DNA from: Pseudomonadota bacterium
GTDB lineage: Bacteria > Pseudomonadota > Gammaproteobacteria > Burkholderiales > Burkholderiaceae_C
Length of the DNA: 46,264 nt
Assembly: GCA_018241325.1 (NCBI GenBank)
Contig: JAFEEB010000010.1
Location: 83,268 to 129,531, forward strand
Direction: 5' to 3'
Part shown: positions 11,124 through 25,461 of the stretch, in pieces
Layout of the letters: every line of letters starts with the position of its first letter
Numbering within the stretch: the stretch's first letter is position 1
Position numbers and translations under genes: made by a program
The notes under the pieces: model-generated
Databases searched by the model: none
What the model was told of the DNA's origin: nothing
What the model saw: only the letters and a program-made list of their open reading frames with translations

Positions 11124-11492
11124 ATGCCCATCTATGCCTACAAGTGCGCGTCCTGCGGCTTTGCCAAGGACGTGCTTCAAAAAATGTCCGATGCCCCGCT
11201 GACGGTTTGCCCGTCCTGCGGCCAGCCGCGCTTTGCCAAGCAGGTCACGGCGGCCAGCTTTCAGCTCAAGGGCTCGGGCTGGTACGTGACGGACTTTCGC
11301 AACGAAGGCGCGCCCGCGGGCGAGGGCGACAAGAAGCCCGAAGCGGCCGCGGCACCCGATGCGGCAGCGCCCGCGCCCGCCCCGGTCGCTGCGTCTACGT
11401 CTGCGTCTGCGCCGGCACCGGCGCCCGCTCCGGCGTCGACGCCGGCGCCTGCTCCCGCGCCGACAGCGAGCGGCGGATCGCACACGGCCTGA
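11124..11492 (+). CDS. FmdB family zinc ribbon protein
   Basis: A 122-residue protein whose first 60 residues are the FmdB-type zinc ribbon (PF09723): 'MPIYAYKCASCGF' with CxxC and 'VCPSCGQPRFAKQVTAASF' with a second CxxC, followed by 'FQLKGSGWYVTDFR'. The rest is a low-complexity Ala/Pro/Ser tail that is probably disordered. The family is thought to be regulatory, but no precise function is established. It precedes DUF502 and aspS, a conserved betaproteobacterial order. Confidence 0.92.
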   Translation: MPIYAYKCASCGFAKDVLQKMSDAPLTVCPSCGQPRFAKQVTAASFQLKGSGWYVTDFRNEGAPAGEGDKKPEAAAAPDAAAPAPAPVAASTSASAPAPAPAPASTPAPAPAPTASGGSHTA

Positions 11493-11514
11493 TCGCGCAT
11501 CGGACGCACCATCC

Positions 11515-12207
11515 ATGATGATCCGCCTGCGGCAATACTTCATCACCGGCCTGCTGGTGTGGTTGCCCATGGGCGTCACGGTGTGGGTGCTGCTGTGGCT
11601 GGTGGGCATTTTGGACAGCGTGTTCCAGGGCGTGCTGATCGCCTTCGAGACCATGGTGCCGCCGCTGCAGCCGCTGGCCAACCAGTTGCGTCACATTCCG
11701 GGGCTGGGGGTGATCCTGGTGGCCATCGTCATCGTCGGCACCGGCCTGTTCGTGGCCAACATGTTCGGCCAATGGTCGCTGCGCCAGTGGGACCGCCTGA
11801 TGACGCGCATCCCGGTGGTGCGCAGCATTTATTCCAGCGTCAAGCAGGTGTCCGACACGCTGTTTTCCGGCTCCGGCCATGCGTTTTCAAAGGCCTTGCT
11901 GGTGCAATACCCGCGCCAGGGCGCCTGGACCATTGCGTTTCTCACCGGCCATCCCGGCGGCGAGGTGGCGGCGCGCCTGGGCGAGGGCTATCTGAGCGTG
12001 TACGTGCCCACCACCCCCAACCCCACCTCGGGCTTTTTCCTGGTCGTGCCGCGCGCCGACGTGATCGAGCTCGCGATGAGCGTTGACGAGGCGCTCAAGT
12101 ACGTCATCTCCATGGGCGTGGTGGCCCCGCCGCCGGTGCGCGAGTCGGTGGCGCTGCCACCCGTCCCGGCGGCCGCTGCCCAGCCGGCCTCTTCGCCCGA
12201 TCCCTGA
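11515..12207 (+). CDS. DUF502 domain membrane protein
   Basis: A 230-residue inner-membrane protein of the DUF502 family (PF04367). Two N-terminal transmembrane helices ('[20 protein letters not shown]' and '[20 protein letters not shown]') are followed by '[19 protein letters not shown]', '[16 protein letters not shown]' and '[13 protein letters not shown]', which are the most conserved family blocks. Function unknown. The tail is Pro/Ala-rich. The start could be ATG 11515 or 11518. It sits between FmdB and aspS, separated from aspS by 25 bases, so the three are probably co-transcribed. Confidence 0.9.
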
Positions 12208-12232
12208 TGTTTTCCTGAAAGCAAGTTCACCC

Positions 12233-14026
12233 ATGTCCATGCGTACCCACTACTGCGGCCTCGTCACCGAGGCCTTGATCGGCCAGAGCGTGACCCTGTG
12301 CGGCTGGGTCAACCGCCGGCGCGACCACGGCGGCGTGATCTTCGTCGATTTGCGCGATCGCGAAGGCTATGTGCAGGTGGTGTGCGATCCGGACCGCGCC
12401 GAGATGTTCAAGACGGCCGAGGACTTGCGCAACGAGTTCTGCATCCAGATCCACGGCCTGGTGCGCGCGCGCCCCGAGGGCACGACCAACGACAACCTCA
12501 AAAGCGGCAAGATCGAGGTGCTTTGCCAGCAGCTCACGGTGCTCAACCCCTCCGTCACCCCGGCGTTTCAGCCCGACGACGACAACCTGTCGGAAACCAC
12601 GCGCCTGACCCACCGCGTGCTCGATCTGCGCCGGCCGGTGATGCAGCGCAACATGATGCTGCGCTACAAGACGGCGATCCAGGTGCGCAACTTCCTCGAC
12701 AAAGAGGGCTTCATCGACATCGAAACGCCCATGCTGGGCAAGAGCACGCCCGAGGGCGCGCGCGACTACCTGGTGCCGTCCCGCGTGCACGACGGCCAGT
12801 TCTACGCGCTGCCGCAGTCGCCCCAGCTGTACAAGCAGATGCTGATGGTGTCCGGCTTCGACCGCTACTACCAGATCACCAAGTGCTTCCGCGACGAAGA
12901 CCTGCGCGCCGACCGCCAGCCCGAGTTCACGCAGATCGACTGCGAGACCTCGTTTCTGGACGAGCAGGAAATCCGCGACATCTTCCAGCGCATGATCAAG
13001 GAAGTGTTCCAGACCCAGCTGAACGTGGACCTGGGCGAATTCCCGGTCATGGCGTATCAGGAGGCGATGCACCGCTTTGGCTCGGACAAGCCCGATCTGC
13101 GCGTCAAGCTCGAGTTCACCGAGCTGACCGACGTGATGAAGGACGTGGATTTCAAGGTCTTCTCCGGCCCCGCCACCACCCCGGGCGGGCGCGTGGTGGC
13201 GCTGCGCGTGCCGGGGGGGGCGCAGATTTCGCGCGGCGAGATCGACGGCTACACCGAGTTCGTCAAGATTTACGGCGCCAAGGGCCTGGCGTGGACCAAG
13301 GTCAACGAGGTCGCGAAAGGGCGCGACGGGTTGCAGTCGCCCATCGTCAAGAACATCCACGACGCCGCGCTCGCCGAAATCCTCAAGCGCACCGGTGCGC
13401 AGGACGGTGACGCGCTGTTCTTCGGCGCCGACAAGGCCAAGATCGTCAACGACGCCATCGGCGCGCTGCGCCTGAAGGTGGGCCTGGGCGAGTTCGGCCG
13501 CAAGAGCGGCCTGTTCGAAGACCGCTGGGCGCCGCTGTGGGTGGTGGACTTCCCCATGTTCGAGTACGACGAGGACAACGCCCGCTGGGCTGCCGTGCAC
13601 CACCCCTTCACCAGTCCCAAGGAAGGTCACGAGGACTACATGGACAGCGACCCGGGCCGCTGCGTCGCCAAGGCCTACGACATGGTGCTCAACGGCTGGG
13701 AGCTGGGTGGCGGCTCGGTGCGTATCCATCGCGCCGACGTGCAAAGCAAGGTGTTCGCCGCCCTCAAGATCAGCCCCGAAGACGCGCGCGCCAAGTTCGG
13801 CTACCTGCTGGACGCGCTGCAGTACGGCGCGCCCCCGCACGGCGGCCTGGCCTTCGGTCTGGATCGCCTGATTACCCTGATGACCGGCAGCGAATCCATC
13901 CGCGACGTGATTGCCTTCCCCAAAACCCAGCGCGCGCAAGACTTGCTCACGCAAGCGCCCAGCGCGGTTGACGAAAAGCAGCTGCGCGAGCTGCACATCA
14001 AGCTGCGCAATTCGGCGGCGGCGTGA
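12233..14026 (+). CDS. aspS: Aspartate--tRNA(Asp/Asn) ligase
   Basis: A class IIb aminoacyl-tRNA synthetase of 597 residues with the bacterial-type architecture: an N-terminal OB fold for anticodon binding, motif 2 '[20 protein letters not shown]', a GAD insertion domain, and C-terminal motif 3 '[15 protein letters not shown]'. In the OB fold it has '[10 protein letters not shown]' (His32) and 'RARPEGTTN' (Gly81), where the discriminating E. coli enzyme has Leu and Lys. These are the marks of non-discriminating AspRS, which also charges tRNA-Asn with Asp for GatCAB to amidate. The start could be ATG 12233 or 12239. Confidence 0.96.
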
Positions 14027-15208: not shown

Positions 15209-15700
15209 ATGCCGCAGCCCACGCCAGCTCCTTCCAAACCCTTCAAGATTCCCCGGTCGGTGCTGGTGCTCATCCACACCGCCGCACTGGACGTGCTGCT
15301 GATTCGCCGCGCTGACATCGAGGCCGAGTTCTGGCAATCGGTCACCGGCAGCCAGGACAGCGAGGGCGAGGCCCTGCTCGATACCGCCGTGCGCGAAGTG
15401 CGCGAGGAAACCGGGCTGGACGCCTGCGCGCCGGGCTTCGCGCTGACCGACTGGAACCTGGAGAACGTCTACGACATCTATCCGCGCTGGCGCCATCGCT
15501 ACGCGCCGGGCGTGACGCGCAATGTCGAGCACGTGTTCGGGCTGCGCGTGCCCGCCGACGCAGCGGTGCGGCTGAATCCGCGCGAGCACACCGATTGGGT
15601 GTGGCTGCCCTGGCGCGCGGCGGCCGACCGCTGCTATTCATACACCAACGCCGAGGCTTGCCTGCTGCTGCCGCGCTTTGCCGAGTCGGAGTCATCGTGA
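15209..15700 (+). CDS. nudB: Dihydroneopterin triphosphate diphosphatase
   Basis: A Nudix hydrolase of 163 residues resembling NudB (NtpA), which removes pyrophosphate from dihydroneopterin triphosphate, the step after FolE in folate synthesis. It shows the NudB-type 'FWQSVTGSQDSEGEALLDTA' leading into 'VREVREETGL' (Nudix box, about 47-70), 'NVYDIYPRWRHRYAPGVTRN' and 'EHTDWVWLPWRAA'. The glycine-to-glutamate spacing of the Nudix box is one residue longer than the general consensus. folE itself lies one gene downstream, so two consecutive pathway steps are encoded close together. Confidence 0.9.
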   Translation: MPQPTPAPSKPFKIPRSVLVLIHTAALDVLLIRRADIEAEFWQSVTGSQDSEGEALLDTAVREVREETGLDACAPGFALTDWNLENVYDIYPRWRHRYAPGVTRNVEHVFGLRVPADAAVRLNPREHTDWVWLPWRAAADRCYSYTNAEACLLLPRFAESESS

Positions 15701-16473
15701 TCGAAGCGCCACCTGGGGACATCCTGGTGCCAGCGCACCTGCGCGTGGCCACCTACAACATTCACAAGGGGGTGCAGGGCATCGGCCCGACGCGCCGGCT
15801 GGAGATCCACAACCTGGCGCTGGCCGTGGACAGCCTGGACGCGGACATCATCTGCCTGCAGGAGGTGCGCGCCGAAAACCGCCGGGAAGCCCAGTACTTC
15901 GAGCGCTGGCCCGCGCAGCCCCAGGCCGATTTCCTGGCGCCACTGGGCTACGAGGTGGCTTATCACACCAACGCCGTCACCAAGGATGGCGAGCATGGCA
16001 ACGCGCTGCTCTCGCGCTGGCCCATCATCCACGTGCGCCACGAAGACATGTCGGACCACCGCTTCGAGCAGCGCGGCCTGCTGCACGCCGAGCTGCGCGT
16101 TCTGGGCGCGCCGCTGCACGTCGTGGTCGTGCACTTCGGCCTGATCCCGGCCAGCCGCCTGCGCCAGACCATCCACCTGCGCCGCTACATCGCACGCGAG
16201 GTGCCACTGGACGAGCCCCTGCTGGTGGCCGGCGACTTCAACGACTGGGGCACACGCGTGCAGCGCCTGCTGCACGTCGATGCGCTCAAGGGTTTCGAGG
16301 GCGAGCGCACGCGCACCTACCCCTCGCGCTTTCCGGTGGCGCAGCTCGACCACATCTACGCCCGCGGCATGCTGCCGCTCAGCCTGCAGGCGCCGCGCGG
16401 GCGGGTGTGGCAGCGCATGTCCGATCACCTGCCCCTGATTGCAGAGTTTCAGCTCACGGCGCACGTCCAATAA
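15697..16473 (+). CDS. Endonuclease/exonuclease/phosphatase family protein
   Basis: A 258-residue EEP-superfamily metallohydrolase (PF03372). Motifs in order: 'VATYNIHKG' near the N terminus, 'CLQEVRAE' (metal-binding Glu), 'VVVHFGLIP', 'VAGDFNDWG', 'LDHIYARG' and the terminal 'MSDHLPLIAEF' with the catalytic Asp-His. Substrate (nucleic acid or phospholipid) unknown; relatives often sit next to cardiolipin synthase genes in Burkholderiales. The start is GTG 15697 overlapping the nudB stop (GTGA), which puts the first motif at the usual distance. Followed by a reversed R2 repeat. Confidence 0.9.
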   Translation: MIEAPPGDILVPAHLRVATYNIHKGVQGIGPTRRLEIHNLALAVDSLDADIICLQEVRAENRREAQYFERWPAQPQADFLAPLGYEVAYHTNAVTKDGEHGNALLSRWPIIHVRHEDMSDHRFEQRGLLHAELRVLGAPLHVVVVHFGLIPASRLRQTIHLRRYIAREVPLDEPLLVAGDFNDWGTRVQRLLHVDALKGFEGERTRTYPSRFPVAQLDHIYARGMLPLSLQAPRGRVWQRMSDHLPLIAEFQLTAHVQ

Positions 16474-16502
16474 GCGCGGGCAGCTATAAAAATTATAGTA
16501 TG
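16474..16502 (-). repeat. AT-rich dispersed repeat (family R2), reversed short copy
   Basis: 'GCGCGGGCAGCTATAAAAAT' followed by TATAGTATGG starts at the stop codon of the EEP gene. Its AT-rich end contains TATAAA and TATAGT hexamers and may also serve as the folE promoter. Confidence 0.55.
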
Positions 16503-16538
16503 GCGTCCGCACGCCGCTGCTGCTACCATCACCGCTTC

Positions 16539-17267
16539 ATGAGCCGCATTCACCCCGCCACCCCTTTGCACGCCGCGGACGAGGACGAGGGCACACCCGT
16601 CTCGGTCAAGATTCGCGAGCGCATCCGCGCCGCCGGGCAGCGCTTCAACGCCAACGACAACATCGCCGAGTTCATCCAGCCGGGCGAGCTGGACGGCCTG
16701 CTGGACGAGGTCGAAGGCAAGATGCAGGCCGTGCTCGACAGCCTGGTGATCGACACCGCGCGCGACCACAACACGGGCAAGACCGCGCGGCGCGTGGCCA
16801 AGATGTACCTCAACGAGGTGTTCCAGGGCCGCTACACGACAGCGCCCACCATCACCGAGTTTCCCAACGCCGAGCACTTGAACGAGCTGATGATCGTCGG
16901 CCCCATCACCGTGCGCAGCGCGTGCAGCCACCACCTGTGCCCCATCATCGGCAAGCTGTGGATCGGCGTGATGCCCAACGAGCACACCAACGTCATCGGC
17001 CTGTCCAAATACGCGCGCCTGGCCGAGTGGATCATGGGCCGCCCCCAAATCCAGGAAGAAGCCGTGGTGCAACTGGCCGACGTGATCCAGCACAAGACCA
17101 AGCCCGACGGCCTGGCGCTGGTCATGCAGGCCTCGCACTTTTGCATGGCCTGGCGCGGCGTCAAGGACATGGACAGCAAGATGATGAACTCCGTCATGCG
17201 CGGCGTGTTCCTGAAGGACGCCAACCTGCGCCGCGAATTCCTGTCCCTCATCCCCCGGAACCCCTGA
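16539..17267 (+). CDS. folE: GTP cyclohydrolase I
   Basis: Converts GTP to 7,8-dihydroneopterin triphosphate, the first step of tetrahydrofolate synthesis. The 242 residues contain 'DHNTGKTARRVAKMYLNEVF', the zinc-binding region 'VRSACSHHLCPIIGK' (Cys129, His131/His132), 'GLSKYARLAEW' and 'QASHFCMAWRGVKD' with the third zinc ligand Cys202. The length and motifs are those of a bacterial type IA enzyme. nudB, the next step, lies 0.8 kb upstream. The stop TGA is part of the CTGAAATG end of repeat R1, so the repeat either inserted exactly at the stop or supplies it. Confidence 0.96.
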   Translation: MSRIHPATPLHAADEDEGTPVSVKIRERIRAAGQRFNANDNIAEFIQPGELDGLLDEVEGKMQAVLDSLVIDTARDHNTGKTARRVAKMYLNEVFQGRYTTAPTITEFPNAEHLNELMIVGPITVRSACSHHLCPIIGKLWIGVMPNEHTNVIGLSKYARLAEWIMGRPQIQEEAVVQLADVIQHKTKPDGLALVMQASHFCMAWRGVKDMDSKMMNSVMRGVFLKDANLRREFLSLIPRNP

Positions 17268-17533
17268 AATGAAGCACACCCCCAGTCTTCACTCGCTGCG
17301 CGATGTTTCGCTCACCCCCTTGCAGGGGGCCGAGCCTGCGCACAAAAGGTCCGGTGGACCTTTTGTTGGCTGGCGAGGGGCCGGGCCACTGGCCCGGCGC
17401 GGCCTGCAAGGCTCGCCAGTGGCCGGGGAGACCCCGGCCACGGCGATCGCTGGAGCGGCCTGCTCCGCGGCCATTCGGCTCTTGGGGTTTCATGCGCTGC
17501 CGGTGGCGTGCGTCGCCATGGCCAACTGAAATG
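17264..17533 (+). repeat. Dispersed repeat R1, long copy between folE and BLUF gene
   Basis: A 270-bp element bounded by CTGAAATG at 17264-17271 and again at 17526-17533. It carries 'CACCCCCAGTCTTCACTCGC' then 'TGCGCGATGTTTCGC', a CCCCTTGCAGGGGG palindrome, the hairpin ACAAAAGGTCC/GGACCTTTTGT (about 17341-17365) and a GC-rich tail. The left CTGAAATG holds the folE stop; the right one holds the BLUF start ATG. Relatives lie at 2246, 17967 and 42478. Confidence 0.85.
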
Positions 17534-17953
17534 CTGGTCCGATTGCTCTACGCCAGCCGCGCGGTGGACAACACCCAGCCGGCCGTGCAAGCCATTCTCG
17601 ACTCGGCCCGGCGCCACAACCAGGACAGCGGCGTGACCGGCGTCCTGGTGTATGGCGGCGGCGTGTTCATGCAGGCGATCGAGGGCGGGCGCCAGGCCGT
17701 GAGCGATCTGTACGGCACCATCTCGCGCGACCCCCGCCACAAGGACGTGGCCCTGCTGCACTACGAAGAGATCGTGGAGCGGCGCTTCGGCAGCTGGACC
17801 ATGGGCTTGGTCGACGTCAGCCGCGTCAACGCCAGCGTGCTGCTCAAATACTCCGAGCGCGCCGTGCTCGACCCGTATGCTGTCTCCGGCAAGGTGTCGA
17901 TGGCCTTGCTGGAAGAGCTGATCGCCACCGCCAGCATCCTCAGCCATACCTGA
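17531..17953 (+). CDS. BLUF domain blue-light photoreceptor
   Basis: A 140-residue single-domain BLUF protein that should bind FAD and sense blue light. The photocycle residues are all present: Tyr7 ('LLYASRA'), Asn30 ('RRHNQDSGVTGVLVY'), Gln48 in 'FMQAIEGG', and Trp89/Met91 in 'FGSWTMGLVD'. The C-terminal 40 residues form the short capping helices typical of small BLUF proteins such as BlrB or PixD. No output domain is fused, so it must signal through a partner. The start ATG lies in the right-hand CTGAAATG of repeat R1 with no clear ribosome binding site. The gene is enclosed by two inverted R1 copies. Confidence 0.94.
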   Translation: MLVRLLYASRAVDNTQPAVQAILDSARRHNQDSGVTGVLVYGGGVFMQAIEGGRQAVSDLYGTISRDPRHKDVALLHYEEIVERRFGSWTMGLVDVSRVNASVLLKYSERAVLDPYAVSGKVSMALLEELIATASILSHT

Positions 17954-17966
17954 GCGCGCGTTCGTT

Positions 17967-18119
17967 CGTGTCAGTGGTCCACAAAGCTGCGCGCCACCCG
18001 CAGGGCATGAAGCTCCAAGAGCCGAGAGGCCGCGGAGCAGGCCATGCCAGCGATGTCCCCTGCAAGGGGGTAGGCGAAACATCGCGCAGCGAGTGAAGAC
18101 TGGGGGTGTGCCATTTCAG
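17967..18119 (-). repeat. Dispersed repeat R1, inverted copy between BLUF and DMT genes
   Basis: Read on the minus strand it starts with CTGAAATG at 18119-18112 and matches the first ~64 bases of the 17264 copy with a 2-base gap and about three mismatches, including an identical AGTCTTCACTCGCTGCGCG region. It ends near CTGACACG (17974-17967). Its outer end runs into the first codons of the DMT gene. Confidence 0.85.
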
Positions 18120-18136
18120 CGCAAGCGCTGGCCCTG

Positions 18137-18994
18137 GTGCTGCTGGCTGGGCTGATCCATGCTGGCTGGAACATCCTGGCCAAGAAGACGGGCGGTGACG
18201 CCCGTTTTGCCTTTTTCACCTCGGCCTGGCAGATGGCGGTGTGGGCCCCGCTGGGCCTGTGGCTGGCCTGGCGCGCCGTGCCCGCCTGGGGCGCGGCCGA
18301 ATGGGCCGTGATCGGCGCCAGCGCGCTGTTGCACGTGGTGTATTTCGTCACCCTGCTGCGCGGCTACCGCGCGGCCGACCTGACGGTGGTCTATCCGCTG
18401 GCGCGCGGCACCGGGCCGCTGCTGTCATCCATCGGCGCGGTGCTGCTGCTGGGCGAGACGGTCACGCCGCGCGGTGTGCTGGGCGTGCTGGGGGTGGTGC
18501 TGGGCGTGGTGCTGATTGCCGGCGGCGCGCGCCTGTGGCGGCCCGCGGCCTCGCTCGCGGCCCGCCAGCAACTGCACCGCGGCCTGTACTACGGTCTGGT
18601 GACGGGGGTGTGGATTGCCGGCTACACCGTGGTCGATGGCTACGCCGTGAAGGTGTTGGCCATCTCGCCCATCCTGGTGGACTACATGGGCAACGCCGCG
18701 CGCGTGCTCTTGCTGGCGCCGGTGGCGCTGCGTGACCGCGCCGAGACGGCGCGGCTGTGGCGCGCGCAGTGGCGCGGCGCGCTGGGGGTGGCGGTGTTCA
18801 GCCCCATCGCCTACGTGCTGGTGCTCTACGCCGTGCAGCAGGCTCCGCTGTCGCACGTGGCGCCGGCGCGCGAGGTCTCGATGCTGTTTGCCGCGCTGAT
18901 CGGCGGGCGCCTGCTGGGCGAGGGCGACCGCGTGGCGCGTGTGGCCGGGGCGCTGCTGATCGGGATGGGGGTGGTGTTGCTGGCCCTGGGGTAG
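18137..18994 (+). CDS. EamA/DMT family transporter (start uncertain)
   Basis: A drug/metabolite transporter-superfamily permease with about ten hydrophobic segments and two EamA repeats. Typical features are 'AGLIHAGWNILAKKTGG' in helix 1, 'YRAADLTVVYPLARGTGPLL' ending repeat 1, and 'QQAPLSHVAPAREVSMLFAA' with 'GGRLLGEGD' in repeat 2. The substrate is unknown. No in-frame ATG exists. GTG 18137 is the first standard start codon but falls inside the first helix; the natural N terminus seems to begin about eight codons earlier, where only ATT 18113 (inside the end of repeat R1) is available. The repeat may have replaced the original start and ribosome binding site. Confidence 0.85.
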   Translation: MLLAGLIHAGWNILAKKTGGDARFAFFTSAWQMAVWAPLGLWLAWRAVPAWGAAEWAVIGASALLHVVYFVTLLRGYRAADLTVVYPLARGTGPLLSSIGAVLLLGETVTPRGVLGVLGVVLGVVLIAGGARLWRPAASLAARQQLHRGLYYGLVTGVWIAGYTVVDGYAVKVLAISPILVDYMGNAARVLLLAPVALRDRAETARLWRAQWRGALGVAVFSPIAYVLVLYAVQQAPLSHVAPAREVSMLFAALIGGRLLGEGDRVARVAGALLIGMGVVLLALG

Positions 18995-19087
18995 CGCGCC
19001 CACCGGCACGGAATGGGCAGCCGCGCGTGCCTTGGCCATTTCCCCAAGGTTTTCGCCCCATCTTCAATAGGGGAATAATGCAAGCCC

Positions 19088-19110
19088 CGCCGCCACGGCT
19101 TGTGGCGGCG
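19088..19110 (+). promoter_or_regulatory. Leader hairpin upstream of the BMP lipoprotein operon
   Basis: CGCCGCCAC / GTGGCGGCG forms a 9-bp stem with a 5-base loop, 27 bases before ATG 19138. An AT-rich GAATAAT (about 19073-19079) just upstream could be a -10 element. The rest of the 143-base gap from the DMT gene holds no gene. The hairpin could be an operator or leader structure controlling the oxygenase operon. Confidence 0.35.
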
Positions 19111-19137
19111 CGCCACTTCCCATCCACTGAACCGACC

Positions 19138-20304
19138 ATGCACACCGACCTCAAGAAACGCACGCTGCTGCAGATGGCTGCTGCCGCCGCCGTGGCCCCG
19201 CTCGCCCTCGCGGCCTGCGGCAAAAAAGACGAGGGCGCTGCGACGGCAGCGCCATCGCCTGCCGCCGGACCCGCGGCAGCGGCGCCCAGCGCCGAGCCGT
19301 TGAAAGCCGCCTGGATCTACGTCGGCCCGGTGGGCAGCGCCGGTTGGAGCTTCGAGCACGACCTGGGGCGCAAAGAGGTGCAAGCCGCGTTCGGCAACCG
19401 CGTGCAAACCAGCTTCGTCGAAAGCGTGCCGGAGGGGGCGGATACGGAGCGGGTGTTGCGCGATCTGGTCAGCCAGGGCAACAACATGATCTTCGGCACC
19501 AGCTTCGGGTTCATGGAGGCCATGGTGAAGGTGGCGCCCGAATTTCCCCATGTCCGGTTCGAGCATGGCACGGGCTACAAGACCGGCCCCAACCTGAACG
19601 TCTATGACTCGCGCTTTTACCAGCCGGTCTACCTCGCCGGCATCATCGCCGCCAGCATGAGCAAGACCGGCGTGCTCGGCTGCGTGGGCTCCGTGCCCAT
19701 TCCCGAGGTGCTGCGCAACATGAATGCCTTTGCCCTGGGTGCGCAAAGCGTCAAGCCCGACATCAAGCTGCGCGTGGTTTTCATCAACAGCTGGTTCGAT
19801 CCGCCCAAGGAGACCGAGGCGGCCAACGCCTTGATCAACGGCGGCGCGGACGTGCTGCTGCAAAACACCGATTCACCCGCCGTGATCCAGGCCGCCGCGC
19901 AAGCGGGCAAGCTGGCGTTCGGCTGGGATTCGGACATGAGCGAAATCGGCGGCAAGGCCCATCTGGGGTCGGTCATCGTGGACTGGGGCCCCTACTACAA
20001 GAAGGCCGTCGGCGCCGCGCTGGACGGCACGTGGAAGGGCGGGCAAGTGACGCGCTGGGGCATGCCGGAGGGACAGAACCTGCTGATCAAGGTGTCCGAC
20101 CAGGTGCCCGCCGAAGCCAGGGCCAGGCTTGAAAAGGCCGAGGCCAGCATCAAGGATCGCAGCTTCGACGTGTTCAACGGCCCGCTGGCCGACCGCGACG
20201 GCACCGAGCGCCTGGCGGCCGGCAAGCGCGCCGACGATGCGTGGTTGGGGGGCATCGACTTCTTCATCAAGGGCATCGAAGGCCAGATCCCGACGGCCAA
20301 GTGA
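19138..20304 (+). CDS. BMP family ABC transporter substrate-binding lipoprotein
   Basis: A 388-residue exported lipoprotein. The N terminus has a basic stretch, a hydrophobic core and the lipobox 'LALAAC' with lipid-accepting Cys27, followed by an Ala/Pro linker. The rest is a BMP/PnrA-type periplasmic binding domain (PF02608): 'AAWIYVGPVGSAGWSFEHD', 'FGTSFGFMEAM', 'FEHGTGYKTGPNLNVYDSRF', 'YLAGIIAASMSKTGVLGCVG' and 'VLLQNTDSPAVIQAA'. Characterised family members bind purine nucleosides or related compounds. No permease or ATPase gene adjoins it. It stops 9 bases before the oxygenase gene and shares its operon, so it may deliver or sense the oxygenase substrate. ATG 19078 is a less likely start. 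Confidence 0.92.
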   Translation: MHTDLKKRTLLQMAAAAAVAPLALAACGKKDEGAATAAPSPAAGPAAAAPSAEPLKAAWIYVGPVGSAGWSFEHDLGRKEVQAAFGNRVQTSFVESVPEGADTERVLRDLVSQGNNMIFGTSFGFMEAMVKVAPEFPHVRFEHGTGYKTGPNLNVYDSRFYQPVYLAGIIAASMSKTGVLGCVGSVPIPEVLRNMNAFALGAQSVKPDIKLRVVFINSWFDPPKETEAANALINGGADVLLQNTDSPAVIQAAAQAGKLAFGWDSDMSEIGGKAHLGSVIVDWGPYYKKAVGAALDGTWKGGQVTRWGMPEGQNLLIKVSDQVPAEARARLEKAEASIKDRSFDVFNGPLADRDGTERLAAGKRADDAWLGGIDFFIKGIEGQIPTAK

Positions 20305-20313
20305 GGAGCGCAA

Positions 20314-21222
20314 ATGACGGTCGAATCGGTTGTCTGGGACGAGTGGTATCCCGTCGCCATCGCGGAAGACGTCACCCCGTGCAAGGTCTACAAGACCCGG
20401 CTGCTGGGACACTCGATCGAATATGCATGCGATGCTGCCGGCCGGCTGACGGCCTGGCGCGACAATGCCGAGCGCACACCGTGCCGGGCGCTCACGCGCT
20501 ATCACGCGCACTGGGTCTCGCTGGGCGAGCCGTCCGACGGGTTCTTTGCACTGCCCGAGTTCGATGAGCCCGACCGGCGCGCGCTGGGCGCCGGCTCCAT
20601 GGCGGTGCATGTGTCGGGCCTGCGCGCGATCGAGAACTTTCTGGACATGGCGCACTTTCCGTATGTGCACGATGGCTATCTGGGCTCGGAGCCCTACACC
20701 GATGTGCTGCCGTATGACGTGTCGATTGAGCCACCGGGCGAGATCTTTGCCCGCAACTGCCGCTTCTTTCAGCCCAAGGGCGCGCCAACCGCTGCCGAGG
20801 AGGGCCATGACGCGCAGTACGTCTACCGCGTGGCGCGCCCCTTCGTGGCCTTGCTTTACAAGAGCTCGCCCGGACACCAGGAGCGCATGGACGTGATCGG
20901 CCTGTTCGTGCAGCCGCTGACCGAGGAATGGTGCAAGGCGCATACCTTGCTGCTGTACCTGGACGAAACCACCCCCGACTCCGGCCTGCGCCTGTTCCAG
21001 CAGACCATCTTCGGCCAGGACCTCATGCTGCTGAGCAACGAGATCCCCAAGAAGATGCCGCTGGATTCGCGTTTCGAGATTCCGGTCCGGGCCGATGCCA
21101 TGTCCATGGCCTATCGCCGCTGGCTGGATCAACGGGGCGTCAGGTACGGCACCTACCGGGAGCTCGAATCACCGGCCATGCCCGCGCCGGCGGGGCATTT
21201 GCCGACCGGGGAAATCGCATGA
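20314..21222 (+). CDS. Rieske-less oxygenase catalytic subunit, NdmC-like
   Basis: A 302-residue protein of the aromatic ring-hydroxylating oxygenase alpha-subunit type. The catalytic mononuclear iron motif is intact: 'ENFLDMAHFPYVHDG' gives Asn108, Asp111, His114 and His119, with a probable third ligand Asp in 'FGQDLMLLSNE'. The N-terminal region, where a Rieske domain should carry CxH and CxxH, has neither (only scattered Cys23, Cys39 and Cys57). Such a protein needs a Rieske cluster from elsewhere; the next gene encodes one. The same arrangement is known for NdmC, the 7-methylxanthine N7-demethylase subunit of Pseudomonas putida CBB5. ATG 20314 follows GAGGAG by 7 bases. It overlaps the next gene (ATGA). 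The substrate is inferred, not shown. Confidence 0.85.
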   Translation: MTVESVVWDEWYPVAIAEDVTPCKVYKTRLLGHSIEYACDAAGRLTAWRDNAERTPCRALTRYHAHWVSLGEPSDGFFALPEFDEPDRRALGAGSMAVHVSGLRAIENFLDMAHFPYVHDGYLGSEPYTDVLPYDVSIEPPGEIFARNCRFFQPKGAPTAAEEGHDAQYVYRVARPFVALLYKSSPGHQERMDVIGLFVQPLTEEWCKAHTLLLYLDETTPDSGLRLFQQTIFGQDLMLLSNEIPKKMPLDSRFEIPVRADAMSMAYRRWLDQRGVRYGTYRELESPAMPAPAGHLPTGEIA

Positions 21223-23024
21223 GCGAGGCTTTGGATTTTGCGTGGTTTCCGGTCGCCGGCGCGGGCGATCTGGTGGAGCGCCACATCTTTGCGGGCGAAC
21301 TCCACAACGTCGAGCTGGCGCTGTGGCGCGACGACGACGGGTGCGTGAACGCCTGGGACAACCGCTGCTGCCATCGCGGCGCGCGCCTGACCATGGGCGT
21401 CAACACCGGTCACCGCGTGCGCTGCCAATACCATGGCTGGCAGTACCGCAGCGGCGACGGCCAGTGCATCGTCCTTCCGGCGGCATCGCAAACACCGCCG
21501 CCCACCAGCGTGTGCGCACACACGTTCGCGGCGGTCGAGCGCAACGATCTGGTGTGGGTCAACCTGAACCTGCCGGCAGGCAGCCCCGCGCGCCCCACGC
21601 CGCACGACTGGCTGATCGCGGCGCCGACCGCCGATCGAACGCAGCGGGCGCTGCAGTGCTTTGTTCTTCATGCCGACGCCGAGACGGTGCTGACGGGCGT
21701 GCAACGCTACCCGGCGTTTGATTCGGGGTTGTCCGCGGACCCCTCCGTTGCGCTGCGGCGCAGCCAGCGCGCCGTCCGTCTGTCCTGGAGCGAGGGCGGG
21801 CAGACCATCCAGCTCCATTTGCTGCTGCAACCCGCGCGCACCGACAAGACCATCGTCCACGCCGTGCTCGAGGCCCGCACCGATGCGATGGCCCTGGCGC
21901 AGTGGCCGGCGCGCCACCAGGCGGCGATGAAGCGGCTGCGCCACCGCCTCGTCGGCGAGGGGCGGGTGTCGGACTTTCCGCTCAGCACATCCGACGACGC
22001 CCATGTGCAGCCGCCGCCCCAACCGAAGACGCGTCGGCGAGGCTCCGAGCGGCTGCTCAAGGCCCGCGTCACCCGAGTCACCGAAGCGGCGCAGGACATC
22101 CGCAGCTTCGAGCTCGAACCCGAGGACCCGGGCGACATCGGCGCCTTGGCCGACTTCATTGCGGGCGCACACATCGACGTGCTGACGCCGGCCGGCATGC
22201 TGCGCCAATACTCCATCGTCAGCGCACCGGGCGAGATCAACGCCGGCAGCGCGCACGGGTTTCGCGGCGTCACCATCGCGGTCAAGCGCGAGCCCGATTC
22301 GCGCGGGGGCTCGGCCTCCATGCACGAGCAGGTCCGGGACGGCGCGATCATCGAGATCTCGCGCCCCAAGAACCATTTTCGGCTGGCCAACAGCGGCGGT
22401 GCGCTCTTTTTGGCCGCCGGCATCGGCGTCACGCCCCTGCTGTCCATGGCCGGGCAAATGGCGGCCACGCGCCGGCCCTACGCGCTGCATTATTTTTCGC
22501 GCTCCGCGGCGCATGTGGCGTTTGGCGAGCGGCTGGCTGCCTTGCAGGACGTGCATTCGCACCTGGGGCTGTCGCCCGAAGAGACCTTGGCGACCATCGA
22601 GACGGTGCTGGCTGCCATGGATCCGCAAATGGACGTTTACGTGTGCGGTCCCCGCCCCTTCCTGGATGCCATCGTCGGCGCAGCCCAAAAAGCGGGTCTG
22701 CCGGCGGACCGCGTTCATTTCGAGCTCTTTTCCAACACCGTTTCGCACCAGGGCGACCAGCCCTTCAAGGTGCGCCTGGCGCGCAGCGGCATCGAGCTGA
22801 ACGTTGCGGCCGGCCAATCGCTCTCGCAGGTGCTGGCGGACCACGGGATACCGATCGAGACGTCGTGCGAGCAAGGCGTTTGCGGAACCTGCATGGTGAC
22901 CGTGCTCGAGGGCACGCCGCAGCACCGGGACGTCTATTTGAGCGAGGACGAGAAGCGCGCCGGGCACTGCATGCAGGCGTGCGTCTCGCGCAGCGCCTCC
23001 GAGTGGCTGGTGCTTGACCTGTGA
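21219..23024 (+). CDS. Rieske-flavin-ferredoxin fusion reductase, NdmD-like
   Basis: A 601-residue multi-domain electron-transfer protein. Residues 1-75 form a Rieske [2Fe-2S] domain (Cys50-x-His52, 16 residues, Cys69-x2-His72 in 'RCQYHGWQYRSG'). About 90-240 look like a worn oxygenase catalytic domain without iron ligands. About 265-500 form a ferredoxin-reductase module with 'RQYS' (329-332, flavin), 'AAGIGVTPLLSM' (about 400, NAD) and 'VCGPRPF' (475-481). The C terminus is a plant-type ferredoxin: Cys550, Cys555, Cys558 and Cys588. An extra N-terminal Rieske domain on such a reductase is the hallmark of NdmD. It should pass electrons from NADH to the Rieske-less subunit encoded just upstream. 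Confidence 0.9.
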   Translation: MSEALDFAWFPVAGAGDLVERHIFAGELHNVELALWRDDDGCVNAWDNRCCHRGARLTMGVNTGHRVRCQYHGWQYRSGDGQCIVLPAASQTPPPTSVCAHTFAAVERNDLVWVNLNLPAGSPARPTPHDWLIAAPTADRTQRALQCFVLHADAETVLTGVQRYPAFDSGLSADPSVALRRSQRAVRLSWSEGGQTIQLHLLLQPARTDKTIVHAVLEARTDAMALAQWPARHQAAMKRLRHRLVGEGRVSDFPLSTSDDAHVQPPPQPKTRRRGSERLLKARVTRVTEAAQDIRSFELEPEDPGDIGALADFIAGAHIDVLTPAGMLRQYSIVSAPGEINAGSAHGFRGVTIAVKREPDSRGGSASMHEQVRDGAIIEISRPKNHFRLANSGGALFLAAGIGVTPLLSMAGQMAATRRPYALHYFSRSAAHVAFGERLAALQDVHSHLGLSPEETLATIETVLAAMDPQMDVYVCGPRPFLDAIVGAAQKAGLPADRVHFELFSNTVSHQGDQPFKVRLARSGIELNVAAGQSLSQVLADHGIPIETSCEQGVCGTCMVTVLEGTPQHRDVYLSEDEKRAGHCMQACVSRSASEWLVLDL

Positions 23025-23040
23025 GCGCAGGACCCCGTTC

Positions 23041-23721
23041 ATGATCACTTTGTACGACTACGAGCTGTCCGGAAACTGCTACAAGGTCCGGCTTTTTCTG
23101 GACATCCTGAAGGTCCCCTACGTCAAGCGCCCGGTCGAGTTCTATCCCGGCTTCGAGCACAAGAGCGATGCCCTGCTCGCGCTCAACCCCTTGGGCCAGT
23201 TGCCGATCCTCGATGACGCCGGCTTTGTCCTGCGCGACGCGCAGGCCATCCTGAGCTATGTCGCGCAACGCTACGCGCCGGGCAGCGCCTGGTATCCGGT
23301 GTCCGACGCCCGCCGTCTGGGTGAAACCAACATGTGGTTGGCTTTTGCCAACGAGCTGACCGCCACCGCGTCGGCGGCGCGCTTGCAGCAGGTGTTCGAG
23401 TTCGACCTGGATGGCGACAAGGCGCGCCGCGGGGCCTACCAGCTGTTTCGCATTCTCGACGAGCATCTGTGGCTGTCCGAGCGCGCCCCCGAGGGTGGAT
23501 GGCTGTGCGCGGGCGCGCACCCGACCATCGCCGACCTGGCCTGTTTCCCGTATGTGATGCTGGCCCCCGAGGGGGGCGTCAGCCTGCTCGACTTTCCGGC
23601 CCTGCGGCGCTGGACCGATCGCGTCAAGCGCATTCCGGGGTTTTCCGTGATGGCCGGCATCTTTCCGGCATCGCCGTCGCGCCAGCAAGCCCCGACCGAG
23701 CGCGGCGCCATCGCGATGTAG
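23041..23721 (+). CDS. Glutathione S-transferase family protein, NdmE-like
   Basis: A 226-residue protein with an N-terminal thioredoxin-like GST domain ('LYDYELSGNCYKVRLFLDIL', 'NPLGQLPILDDAGFVLRDAQ', 'AILSYVAQRY') and an all-helical C-terminal domain ('GGWLCAGAHPTIADLACFPY'). Alone it would be called a GST of unknown substrate. As the fourth gene behind an NdmC-like and an NdmD-like gene it corresponds to NdmE, a GST-like protein needed structurally for N7-demethylase activity in Pseudomonas putida. The start ATG lies 16 bases after the reductase stop, with GCAGGA before it. A catalytic role with glutathione is not excluded. Confidence 0.88.
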   Translation: MITLYDYELSGNCYKVRLFLDILKVPYVKRPVEFYPGFEHKSDALLALNPLGQLPILDDAGFVLRDAQAILSYVAQRYAPGSAWYPVSDARRLGETNMWLAFANELTATASAARLQQVFEFDLDGDKARRGAYQLFRILDEHLWLSERAPEGGWLCAGAHPTIADLACFPYVMLAPEGGVSLLDFPALRRWTDRVKRIPGFSVMAGIFPASPSRQQAPTERGAIAM

Positions 23722-23760
23722 GTGCGATGCGGGCCATTGCGGCCGCTTGCGCTTGCTGGA

Positions 23761-25461
23761 TCAGCGCGTGGCGCTATCGTTTTGATTGTCTTCGGCGGCG
23801 CGGCGGTTCGCGTCCAGGGCGGCCAGCAACTCCGCGTCGCTGCGATACAGATGCAGCCGCTCATCCGGCGCCAGCAGGCCGGCGGCGCGCAGCACGGTCT
23901 CGGCGGGCAGCTTCAGGCCACTCACCCGCAAGGCCACGTCGCGCTGCAGCAGCTGGGCCCACACCCGGGCAAACACCTCTGCGCCGGTCACGTCGATGTG
24001 ATTGATCGGCTGCGCCAGCACGCACACCTGGCGCGTGTCGGGGTGCTCGGTCAGGTACTCGGTCACGTGGCGCTCGAACGCGCCGGCGCTGGCAAAGTCC
24101 AGCGCCGCGTCCATGCGCAGCGCCAGGGTGTGCGGCGCCAGGGGCGGCAACTGCCACAGGTGGCGGTCGCGCAAAGTGCCATCCGGGTGCAGGCCGGCCT
24201 CGATGATGCGCGGGTGCAGGTTCTGGTATAGAAAGTGCGACAGCGCCATCAGCACCCCGGCCAGCACGCCCCAATACAGCGCCGGCGCCGCAGCGATGGT
24301 GATGACGAAGGTGAGCAGCGCGATCGCGCCCTCCACGCGCGAAATGCGCCACACGCGCAAAAACTCGCGCGGCTTGAGCAGGCCCACCACCGCCACCACC
24401 ACGATGGCCGCCAGCACCGCCTGCGGCACGTGGCGCAGCCAGGGCGTGAAAAACAGCAGCGCCAGCAGCACCACCGCCACCGAAAAAATCGTGGCCCAGC
24501 CGGTCTGCGCGCCGGCATACAGGTTGAGCGCCGAGCGCGAGAACGAAGAGCTGGTGGCGAACGAGCCCGACAGGCCCGAGACGATCTTGGCCAGCCCCTG
24601 GCCGATCAGGTCCTGGTCCTGGTCCCAGCGCTCACCCTTGCGCTGGTTGTCCACCTTGGCGCTGGAGGCGGTTTCCAGAAAGCTGATCAGGGTCACCACC
24701 AGCGTGGGCAGCACCAGTTGCCCCAGCGCCTCGGCGCCCGGCCAGGTCGGGATGTACAGCGAGGGCAGGCCTTGCGGCAGCAGGCCGATCACCTTGCCGC
24801 CGCTGGCCTCGAAGCCCAGCGCGCCGCTCACGGCCGCCGCCGCCAGCACCACCACCAGAATGCTGGGAAAGGTGGGTCGCCAGCGCCGCGCCAGCCACAG
24901 CAGGGCGAGCGATACCAGGCCGAAGGCCGCCGCGCCGGCATCGAACGCCGGCGCGTGCAGCATCTGTCCCCAGGGGCCTTGAAAGCCCAGCAGCGCCGGC
25001 AATTGCGAGGTGATGATCAGCACCGCGGCCGCCTGCGTGAATGCCATCAGCACCGGCGAATTGACCAGGTTGAGCAGCCAGCCGAAGCGCGCCAGCCCCA
25101 GCGCGGCCTGCAGCAGTCCGGACATCAGCGCCAGCCACACCGCCAGGTCCACCCACTGGGCCGTGCCCGGCGTGGCCAGGGGGGCGAGCCCGGCGGCAAT
25201 CAGCAAGCTGGTCAGCGCCACCGGCCCGACCGACAGCCGCGCCGAAGCCGAAAACAGCACGGCCGCCAGCGCCGGCAACAGCGATGCGTAGATGCCCGTG
25301 ATCAGCGGCATCCCGGCCAGCTGGGCGTAGGCCACGCCCTGCGGAATCACCATCAGTCCCACCGTGAGGCCGGCCATGGCCTCGTTGCGCAGCAGCGCCG
25401 CCGTGGGACGCGGCCAGCGCAGAAACGGCAGGCGGCGGGTCAGGCGAGCGGACAGATGCAT
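23761..25461 (-). CDS. SulP family inorganic anion transporter with STAS domain
   Basis: A 566-residue SLC26/SulP transporter. The membrane part (about 25-410) shows 'GLTVGLMVIPQGVAYAQLAG', 'GIYASLLPALAAVLFSAS', 'LSVGPVAL' and 'GSFATSSSFSRSALNLYAGA'. The C-terminal STAS domain (about 440-550) includes 'INHIDVTGAEVFARV'. Family members move sulfate, bicarbonate or dicarboxylates; the substrate cannot be decided here. The gene is convergent with the Ndm-like operon, 39 bases from its last stop, and divergent from the DUF4124 gene. Confidence 0.93.
   Translation of the reverse strand: MHLSARLTRRLPFLRWPRPTAALLRNEAMAGLTVGLMVIPQGVAYAQLAGMPLITGIYASLLPALAAVLFSASARLSVGPVALTSLLIAAGLAPLATPGTAQWVDLAVWLALMSGLLQAALGLARFGWLLNLVNSPVLMAFTQAAAVLIITSQLPALLGFQGPWGQMLHAPAFDAGAAAFGLVSLALLWLARRWRPTFPSILVVVLAAAAVSGALGFEASGGKVIGLLPQGLPSLYIPTWPGAEALGQLVLPTLVVTLISFLETASSAKVDNQRKGERWDQDQDLIGQGLAKIVSGLSGSFATSSSFSRSALNLYAGAQTGWATIFSVAVVLLALLFFTPWLRHVPQAVLAAIVVVAVVGLLKPREFLRVWRISRVEGAIALLTFVITIAAAPALYWGVLAGVLMALSHFLYQNLHPRIIEAGLHPDGTLRDRHLWQLPPLAPHTLALRMDAALDFASAGAFERHVTEYLTEHPDTRQVCVLAQPINHIDVTGAEVFARVWAQLLQRDVALRVSGLKLPAETVLRAAGLLAPDERLHLYRSDAELLAALDANRRAAEDNQNDSATR

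Follow-up and report, generated by a model that had tools for sequence, protein, structure and literature searches.

A four-gene operon headed by a BMP-family lipoprotein encodes a putative NdmCDE-type purine N-demethylase with its two metal sites predicted on separate homologous chains

In a 46,264-nucleotide stretch of DNA (here called the window) from contig JAFEEB010000010.1 of a Pseudomonadota bacterium (Burkholderiaceae_C, assembly GCA_018241325.1), positions 19138 to 23721 hold a four-gene operon whose products probably take up a methylated purine base and remove its N-methyl group oxidatively. Motifs, predicted folds and a tree give good support for assigning its three putative enzyme subunits to the NdmCDE kind of Rieske oxygenase, and we infer that the substrate is most likely 7-methylxanthine or 7-methylguanine. 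The most interesting part of the system is a pair of alpha subunits, each of which seems to be without what the other has kept. The features are as follows.

19138..20304, + strand: BMP-family (AtzT-like) substrate-binding lipoprotein, 388 aa (Pfam Bmp, E-value 8.6e-49)
20314..21222, + strand: NdmC-type catalytic alpha subunit, 302 aa, iron site present, Rieske cluster loops gone
20314..20526, + strand: NdmC residues 1-71, putative Rieske-domain remnant without cluster ligands (hhalign)
20644..20670, + strand: NdmC residues 111-119, D-x2-H-x4-H iron-site helix (alignment; D236 at 21019-21021)
21219..23024, + strand: NdmD-type protein, 601 aa, Rieske alpha-prime part, FNR-type reductase and plant-type ferredoxin (Pfam, AlphaFold2 (AF2))
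21219..21971, + strand: NdmD residues 1-251, predicted complete Rieske-oxygenase alpha fold, with Rieske cluster and a catalytic-type domain without iron-site motif
22041..23024, + strand: NdmD residues 275-601, phthalate-dioxygenase-reductase-like flavin/NADH/2Fe-2S module
23041..23721, + strand: NdmE-type GST-like subunit, 226 aa (Pfam GST_N_3, E-value 2.2e-12)

The operon is real and conserved. Its coordinates and strand were rechecked, and the four same-strand genes with gaps of 9, -4 and 16 bases stand as given in the initial annotation; Pfam also agreed with the four protein types proposed there (Bmp; VanA_C only, with no Rieske match in the NdmC-type subunit; Rieske, NAD-binding, DmmA-like_N and Fer2; GST_N). 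A scan of a genome collection returned at least 551 relatives, and the locus counts below are from the best 80. The closest among these 80, a metagenome-assembled genome (MAG) of Comamonas sp. SCN 65-56 (L079, 74% identical), has all four genes, arranged as in the window, at 67-86% identity. In a comparison covering 10 kb either side, all window frames of at least 120 aa that matched L079 at an E-value of 1e-15 lay within the operon stretch (18736-23760), and the operon therefore moves or persists as a unit.

By its sequence, the catalytic subunit has a mononuclear-iron site and no Rieske cluster, the reductase carries an extra N-terminal Rieske cluster and a GST-like gene adjoins them, which is the constitution of NdmCDE from Pseudomonas putida CBB5, where a Rieske-less NdmC, a Rieske-plus-reductase NdmD and a GST-like NdmE are likewise encoded by adjacent genes. 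The CBB5 complex is described as having a 3:3:3 composition and 360 kDa and as specific for 7-methylxanthine (PMC10380055); the enzyme needs its partners and NdmC alone is insoluble (PMC10380055, PMC13237722), and the need for a GST-like partner is known only for this enzyme (PMC10380055). The window differs from the CBB5 system in having a BMP gene first in the operon, in falling in a separate sub-branch and in lacking any match to NdmA/NdmB, TIM-barrel, GntR, purine permease or Frm proteins. The operon is new in being headed by a BMP gene and being without NdmA/B.

Residues D111, H114, H119 and D236 of the NdmC-type subunit were invariant in 59 of 59 aligned rows (the window and 58 of the 79 rows whose length fitted, near-copies omitted); by homology, residues 111-119 are taken as the iron-site helix and D236 as the third ligand. 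In a wider set of 158 sequences, which excludes matches below 80 bits, the pattern was missed by eight: two one-piece oxygenases, two fragments and four second NdmC copies. Residues 1-95 aligned with the NdmD Rieske domain (hhalign, E-value 2.6e-13), with the cluster-binding stretch missing in NdmC. The nearest solved fold to the NdmC model was that of the one-piece Rieske oxygenases SxtT and GxtA.

The NdmD-type protein shows the complementary state. Its Rieske residues C50, H52, C69 and H72 were invariant in 44 of 44 rows (the window and 43 of 61, near-copies again omitted). The AF2 model (mean predicted local distance difference test score (pLDDT) 86.4, predicted template modelling score (pTM) 0.68) gave a strong structural match of residues 1-251 to SxtT/GxtA; Foldseek placed GxtA fifth for the NdmD model, and the VIA listing was filled by reductases, with GxtA in row 50 of the 50 listed. 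With default hhalign options, the profile of residues 118-275 matched the NdmC catalytic profile at an E-value of 4.5e-5 (probability 68.7), against 0.19-0.68 for six unrelated controls. The Rieske domain that the initial annotation had seen in the reductase is thus present, but its description as merely added does not hold, the predicted fold being that of a whole decayed alpha subunit. In the models, both chains have a complete alpha fold with one metal site each; NdmC and the N-terminal part of NdmD may accordingly be read as homologous alpha subunits that arose by reciprocal losses, and because the losses are reciprocal neither would work alone. SxtT and GxtA, in contrast, have both metal sites in one chain. 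A literature search for a degenerate heteromeric Rieske oxygenase turned up nothing relevant, and the reciprocal-loss architecture was not met in the excerpts of the NdmCDE and Rieske-oxygenase literature (PMC4408171, PMC8055839, PMC10380055, PMC12445004, PMC6834077, PMC13237722); it may already be in print, subscription papers being outside this scope.

Seventy-seven of the 80 loci had an NdmC-type and a Rieske match, and 72 of them a match to the NdmE-type reference too, several of the rest lying near contig ends. In 65 loci the Rieske and reductase matches were in one frame. L137 and L064 have one gene for the Rieske protein and another for the reductase, and in several loci a Rieske protein of about 215-260 residues stands alone, with no reductase match within the stretch covered. 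Judged by eye, the C-terminal alpha-prime remnant persists in the non-fused and alternative forms, and its being kept in them suggests a structural role. Two of the 65 single-frame proteins, those of L086 (from about 10880) and L088 (from about 10940), are short NdmD types of only about 390-400 aa, with a Rieske alpha-prime part and a plant-type ferredoxin and without flavin/NADH domains. In L070 a reductase (flavin/NADH/ferredoxin) is fused in frame to the NdmC-type subunit (11917-13728) beside a separate Rieske alpha-prime gene (11163-11897), the opposite of the NdmD fusion. L095, L101, L103, L110, L123 and other, mostly rhizobial loci have at least two NdmC-type matches per NdmD and NdmE; the match listing contains 24 such loci among the 80, and the second copies sampled make up a separate clade of nine rows, while four second copies lack the usual iron-site pattern. 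One genome (G116, with L063, L064 and L070) has three NdmC-type systems, one next to NdmA/NdmB-like genes, with at least two different domain arrangements among the three.

A search of plasmids with the catalytic subunit matched 261 records, among them the caffeine-type ndm cluster on pTmex-577K of P. putida MT178 (L011). The L011 oxygenases matched the solved CBB5 proteins over nearly the whole length (NdmA 764.6 bits, NdmB 785 bits), and the C-terminal domain of its NdmD matched the solved NdmD ferredoxin with 163.8 bits over 87 residues; the NdmC of L011 was used as proxy for CBB5 NdmC throughout. The window subunit is 51.6% identical to it. Some match was found in 113 of 299 genomes of the organism's own family, and nine of these, the window's own included, had NdmC-type matches above 225 bits that start within the first 30 residues.

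A tree of the catalytic region (quick IQ-TREE build on 90 of 154 rows, with every fourth late locus and Shimodaira-Hasegawa-like approximate likelihood ratio (SH-aLRT) support only) placed 64 Rieske-less subunits on one side of a branch (SH-aLRT 100). A group of 19 one-piece Rieske oxygenases of the same family (96) adjoins that side, two more one-piece rows having no resolved place; L038, L042 and L043 were classed as one-piece, L042 and L043 by a Rieske motif and L038, whose own frame has no clean motif, by an overlapping Rieske match at its place in L071. L038-L058 and L071-L074 represent a pairing that is common in this family, a one-piece oxygenase with a purine-type BMP gene close by (18 of 21 loci). 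The initial annotation had named a placement of the catalytic subunit with a non-purine oxygenase family as the outcome that would speak against it; in the tree the subunit groups with the L011 NdmC, the proxy for the characterised protein, in a clade of 22 rows (97). Within this clade the window falls in a sub-branch of nine rows (86) and L011 in one of 13 (99). Ten of the latter have an NdmA/B-like gene in their loci, the others (L010, L012, L092) none. In a Rieske-domain tree (IQ-TREE, few columns according to the program's warning) the 39 alpha-prime rows, comprising 31 genome-contig loci, six others, L011 and the window, came together with a support of 83, reductase-fused and unfused ones alike. 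The window, L079, L083, L080 and L082 cluster in both trees. The NdmC of L090, labelled as a Phycisphaerae MAG, is identical over the tree columns to that of Stutzerimonas xanthomarina, and its contig is probably misbinned. In the ndm-type cluster of Cupriavidus sp. EM10 (L078, 3800-15650) the NdmB, TIM-barrel and GntR matches are broken over several frames, perhaps by sequencing errors.

The absence of NdmA/NdmB-like subunits noted earlier for the window extends to the genome, which is 96% complete and in which neither was found (best partial matches 62.2 and 65.2 bits). The system can thus be called stand-alone, as first proposed, but it is not particular to this organism. Rhizobia, Devosia, Granulosicoccus and actinobacteria have stand-alone NdmCDE-like loci with the same subunits, no NdmA/B match and often a purine BMP context; many of these loci differ from the compact four genes of the window in having a whole ABC (ATP-binding cassette) transporter, GntR or GuaD alongside, and some have a second NdmC. 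NdmCDE homologues without assigned function have been reported in 18 further organisms (PMC4408171), and partial ndm sets including ndmCD in Acinetobacter strains, which were suggested to be able to convert 7-methylxanthine (PMC8055839). Given these reports, the occurrence of NdmCDE-like genes on their own is in itself no novelty.

The first protein of the operon has a lipobox-like LALAAC, read directly from the translation, and gave near whole-length matches to AtzT (6pi5, 358.7 bits; 164 of 334 residues identical, 49%) and to 3s99 of Brucella (355.8 bits). Six of the nine guanine-surrounding residues named in AtzT, and five of the seven direct contacts, are identical, the changes being Y45 to Trp (still aromatic), T139 to Val and N220 to Asp in AtzT numbering. 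The BMP family assigned initially is therefore retained, but not the kinship to nucleoside binders: whole-length similarity and most of the purine pocket point to the purine-base binders AtzT (guanine) and 3s99 (adenine modelled). AtzT binds guanine with an affinity of 0.11 uM (PMC6834077).

In the organism's own genome a guanine deaminase (478.5 bits), XdhB (1278.9 bits) and a class III alcohol dehydrogenase of the frmA type (714.4 bits) were each found over the cut-off. Elsewhere on the window's contig (L059, 7400-14178) two further BMP genes flank an A_deaminase-family gene near BMP-type ABC permease and ATPase genes, of which the ATPase gene reaches the contig end; these transporter genes are the likely ABC partner of the lipoprotein. 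A Rieske cluster on contig C11 was considered as NdmD-like and rejected, its reductase and oxygenase being separate genes among catabolic-looking open reading frames (ORFs). Among the 80 loci, a BMP-family match was present in 45 (identity from 29% up, no floor being set), a purine permease match in 12 and an NdmA/B-like gene at 50% identity or more in six. Guanine deaminase was counted in nine loci at 50% identity or more, a figure preferred to 12 of 80 because the latter includes matches of 24-28%; in Mesorhizobium sp. AR02, the source of the query, its gene lies directly behind the GST gene. Taken together, 55 loci had a BMP, guanine deaminase, xanthine dehydrogenase or purine permease match, some of low identity.

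Domains and motifs for each electron-transfer step are present, and the following course is proposed. The AtzT-like lipoprotein would bind the base and pass it on to an ABC transporter, for which the purine-type set on the same contig is the probable candidate. Electrons would pass from NADH through the flavin and the plant-type ferredoxin of the NdmD-like protein to the Rieske cluster of its alpha-prime part and, following established Rieske chemistry, across the subunit interface to the mononuclear iron of NdmC, which would activate O2 and hydroxylate the N-methyl group with release of formaldehyde. The demethylated purine would then go to guanine deaminase and xanthine dehydrogenase, and the GST-like protein may keep the complex together in this organism. 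NdmC is predicted to make mixed contacts with the alpha-prime part of NdmD, because in a stack of two homotrimers every working site would face a dead one. In Rieske oxygenases the distance from the cluster of one subunit to the iron of its neighbour is about 12 angstroms (PMC12445004).

Several points weigh against this reading. The function of the branch is deduced from kinship, with no known activity in it, and 51.6% identity to the L011 NdmC does not fix the substrate. The BMP pocket is altered at three of nine positions, including the guanine-contacting N220. The two IQ-TREE trees were built quickly, with SH-aLRT support and no bootstrap, and the Rieske tree has few columns. A scan of 18800-24000 for sigma-70-like promoters gave 0 sites, and neither a formaldehyde-oxidation gene nor a regulator was seen in the operon. 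With other hhalign options the match between the NdmD and NdmC catalytic profiles fell to an E-value of 0.0011 (probability 8.0), and the NdmD catalytic half matched the one-piece oxygenases at 0.04; the sequence signal for a decayed catalytic half is modest and setting-dependent, and the case for it is carried mainly by the AF2 fold.

Among the alternatives, a different type of purine oxygenase, such as one that hydroxylates the ring, is unlikely. HpxD/HpxE is a two-component purine-linked Rieske system, for which ring hydroxylation has been proposed, and by description alone it resembles the system of the window. The related one-piece oxygenases also adjoin a BMP gene, with a match in 18 of 21 (L041 partial) and no reductase or GST-like match within about 1.5 kb each side; we know of no reaction for one-piece oxygenases of this kind. 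In two same-genus genomes a one-piece gene stands beside BMP transporter and amidohydrolase-type genes, which would suit a ring hydroxylase; a third (G015) had no match to the catalytic subunit, and no one-piece homologue of this kind was found in the window genome. The ligands of AtzT include unmethylated bases (PMC6834077), which points the same way. Against a ring hydroxylase, homologues of NdmC, NdmD and NdmE are all present, and NdmC is the closest subunit with an assigned reaction, in a comparison that did not include HpxD/HpxE.

That NdmD is a Rieske domain with a linker, residues 140-246 being no decayed catalytic domain, draws on the modest signal of that half and is quite improbable. 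That the operon is left over, or was transferred, from a caffeine cluster and still serves caffeine breakdown with NdmA/NdmB elsewhere would agree with the caffeine-type clusters in the 22-row clade and is very unlikely: this reading is largely refuted by the 96% complete genome without NdmA/B, and no NdmA/NdmB occurs in the other eight loci of the window's nine-row sub-branch, within the stretches covered, while L079 shares the operon with the BMP gene in first place. An s-triazine or another N-alkyl heterocycle outside the purines is equally hard to credit as substrate, for AtzT takes 2-hydroxyatrazine (2.2 uM) but guanine about 20-fold more tightly (PMC6834077), and purine-linked matches, low-identity ones included, occur in 55 of the 80 loci. 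A methylated purine base is the substrate class that we favour.

Upstream of the operon (15595-18994) lie genes of the endonuclease/phosphatase family, for GTP cyclohydrolase I, with BLUF and for EamA (18137-18994, an EamA transporter match in Pfam), with no evident link to it. Downstream, a convergent ORF of 566 aa (23761-25461) has the look of a SulP-type transporter from reading the translation alone. The promoter/terminator scan gave five terminator-like sites, compared with a shuffled mean of 3.4.

Beyond this operon, NdmCDE may, tentatively, be viewed as an obligate heteromeric Rieske oxygenase that arose by reciprocal decay from a BMP-linked one-piece oxygenase, whose main job would be the salvage of 7-methylguanine or 7-methylxanthine from nucleic-acid turnover and whose caffeine role would have come later via NdmA/NdmB. 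In Rieske oxygenases electrons cross between neighbouring subunits. If the Rieske site is confined to one chain and the iron site to the homologous partner chain, this crossing would be obligatory, and inter-subunit electron transfer could therefore be studied without a competing homomeric route; the structure of the NdmCDE complex was still unsolved as of 2026 according to PMC13237722. Among the matches listed in a search of the 7-methylguanine literature, none named both 7-methylguanine and Rieske. If the wide stand-alone branch does handle 7-methylguanine, it would provide a bacterial route for a common modified base.

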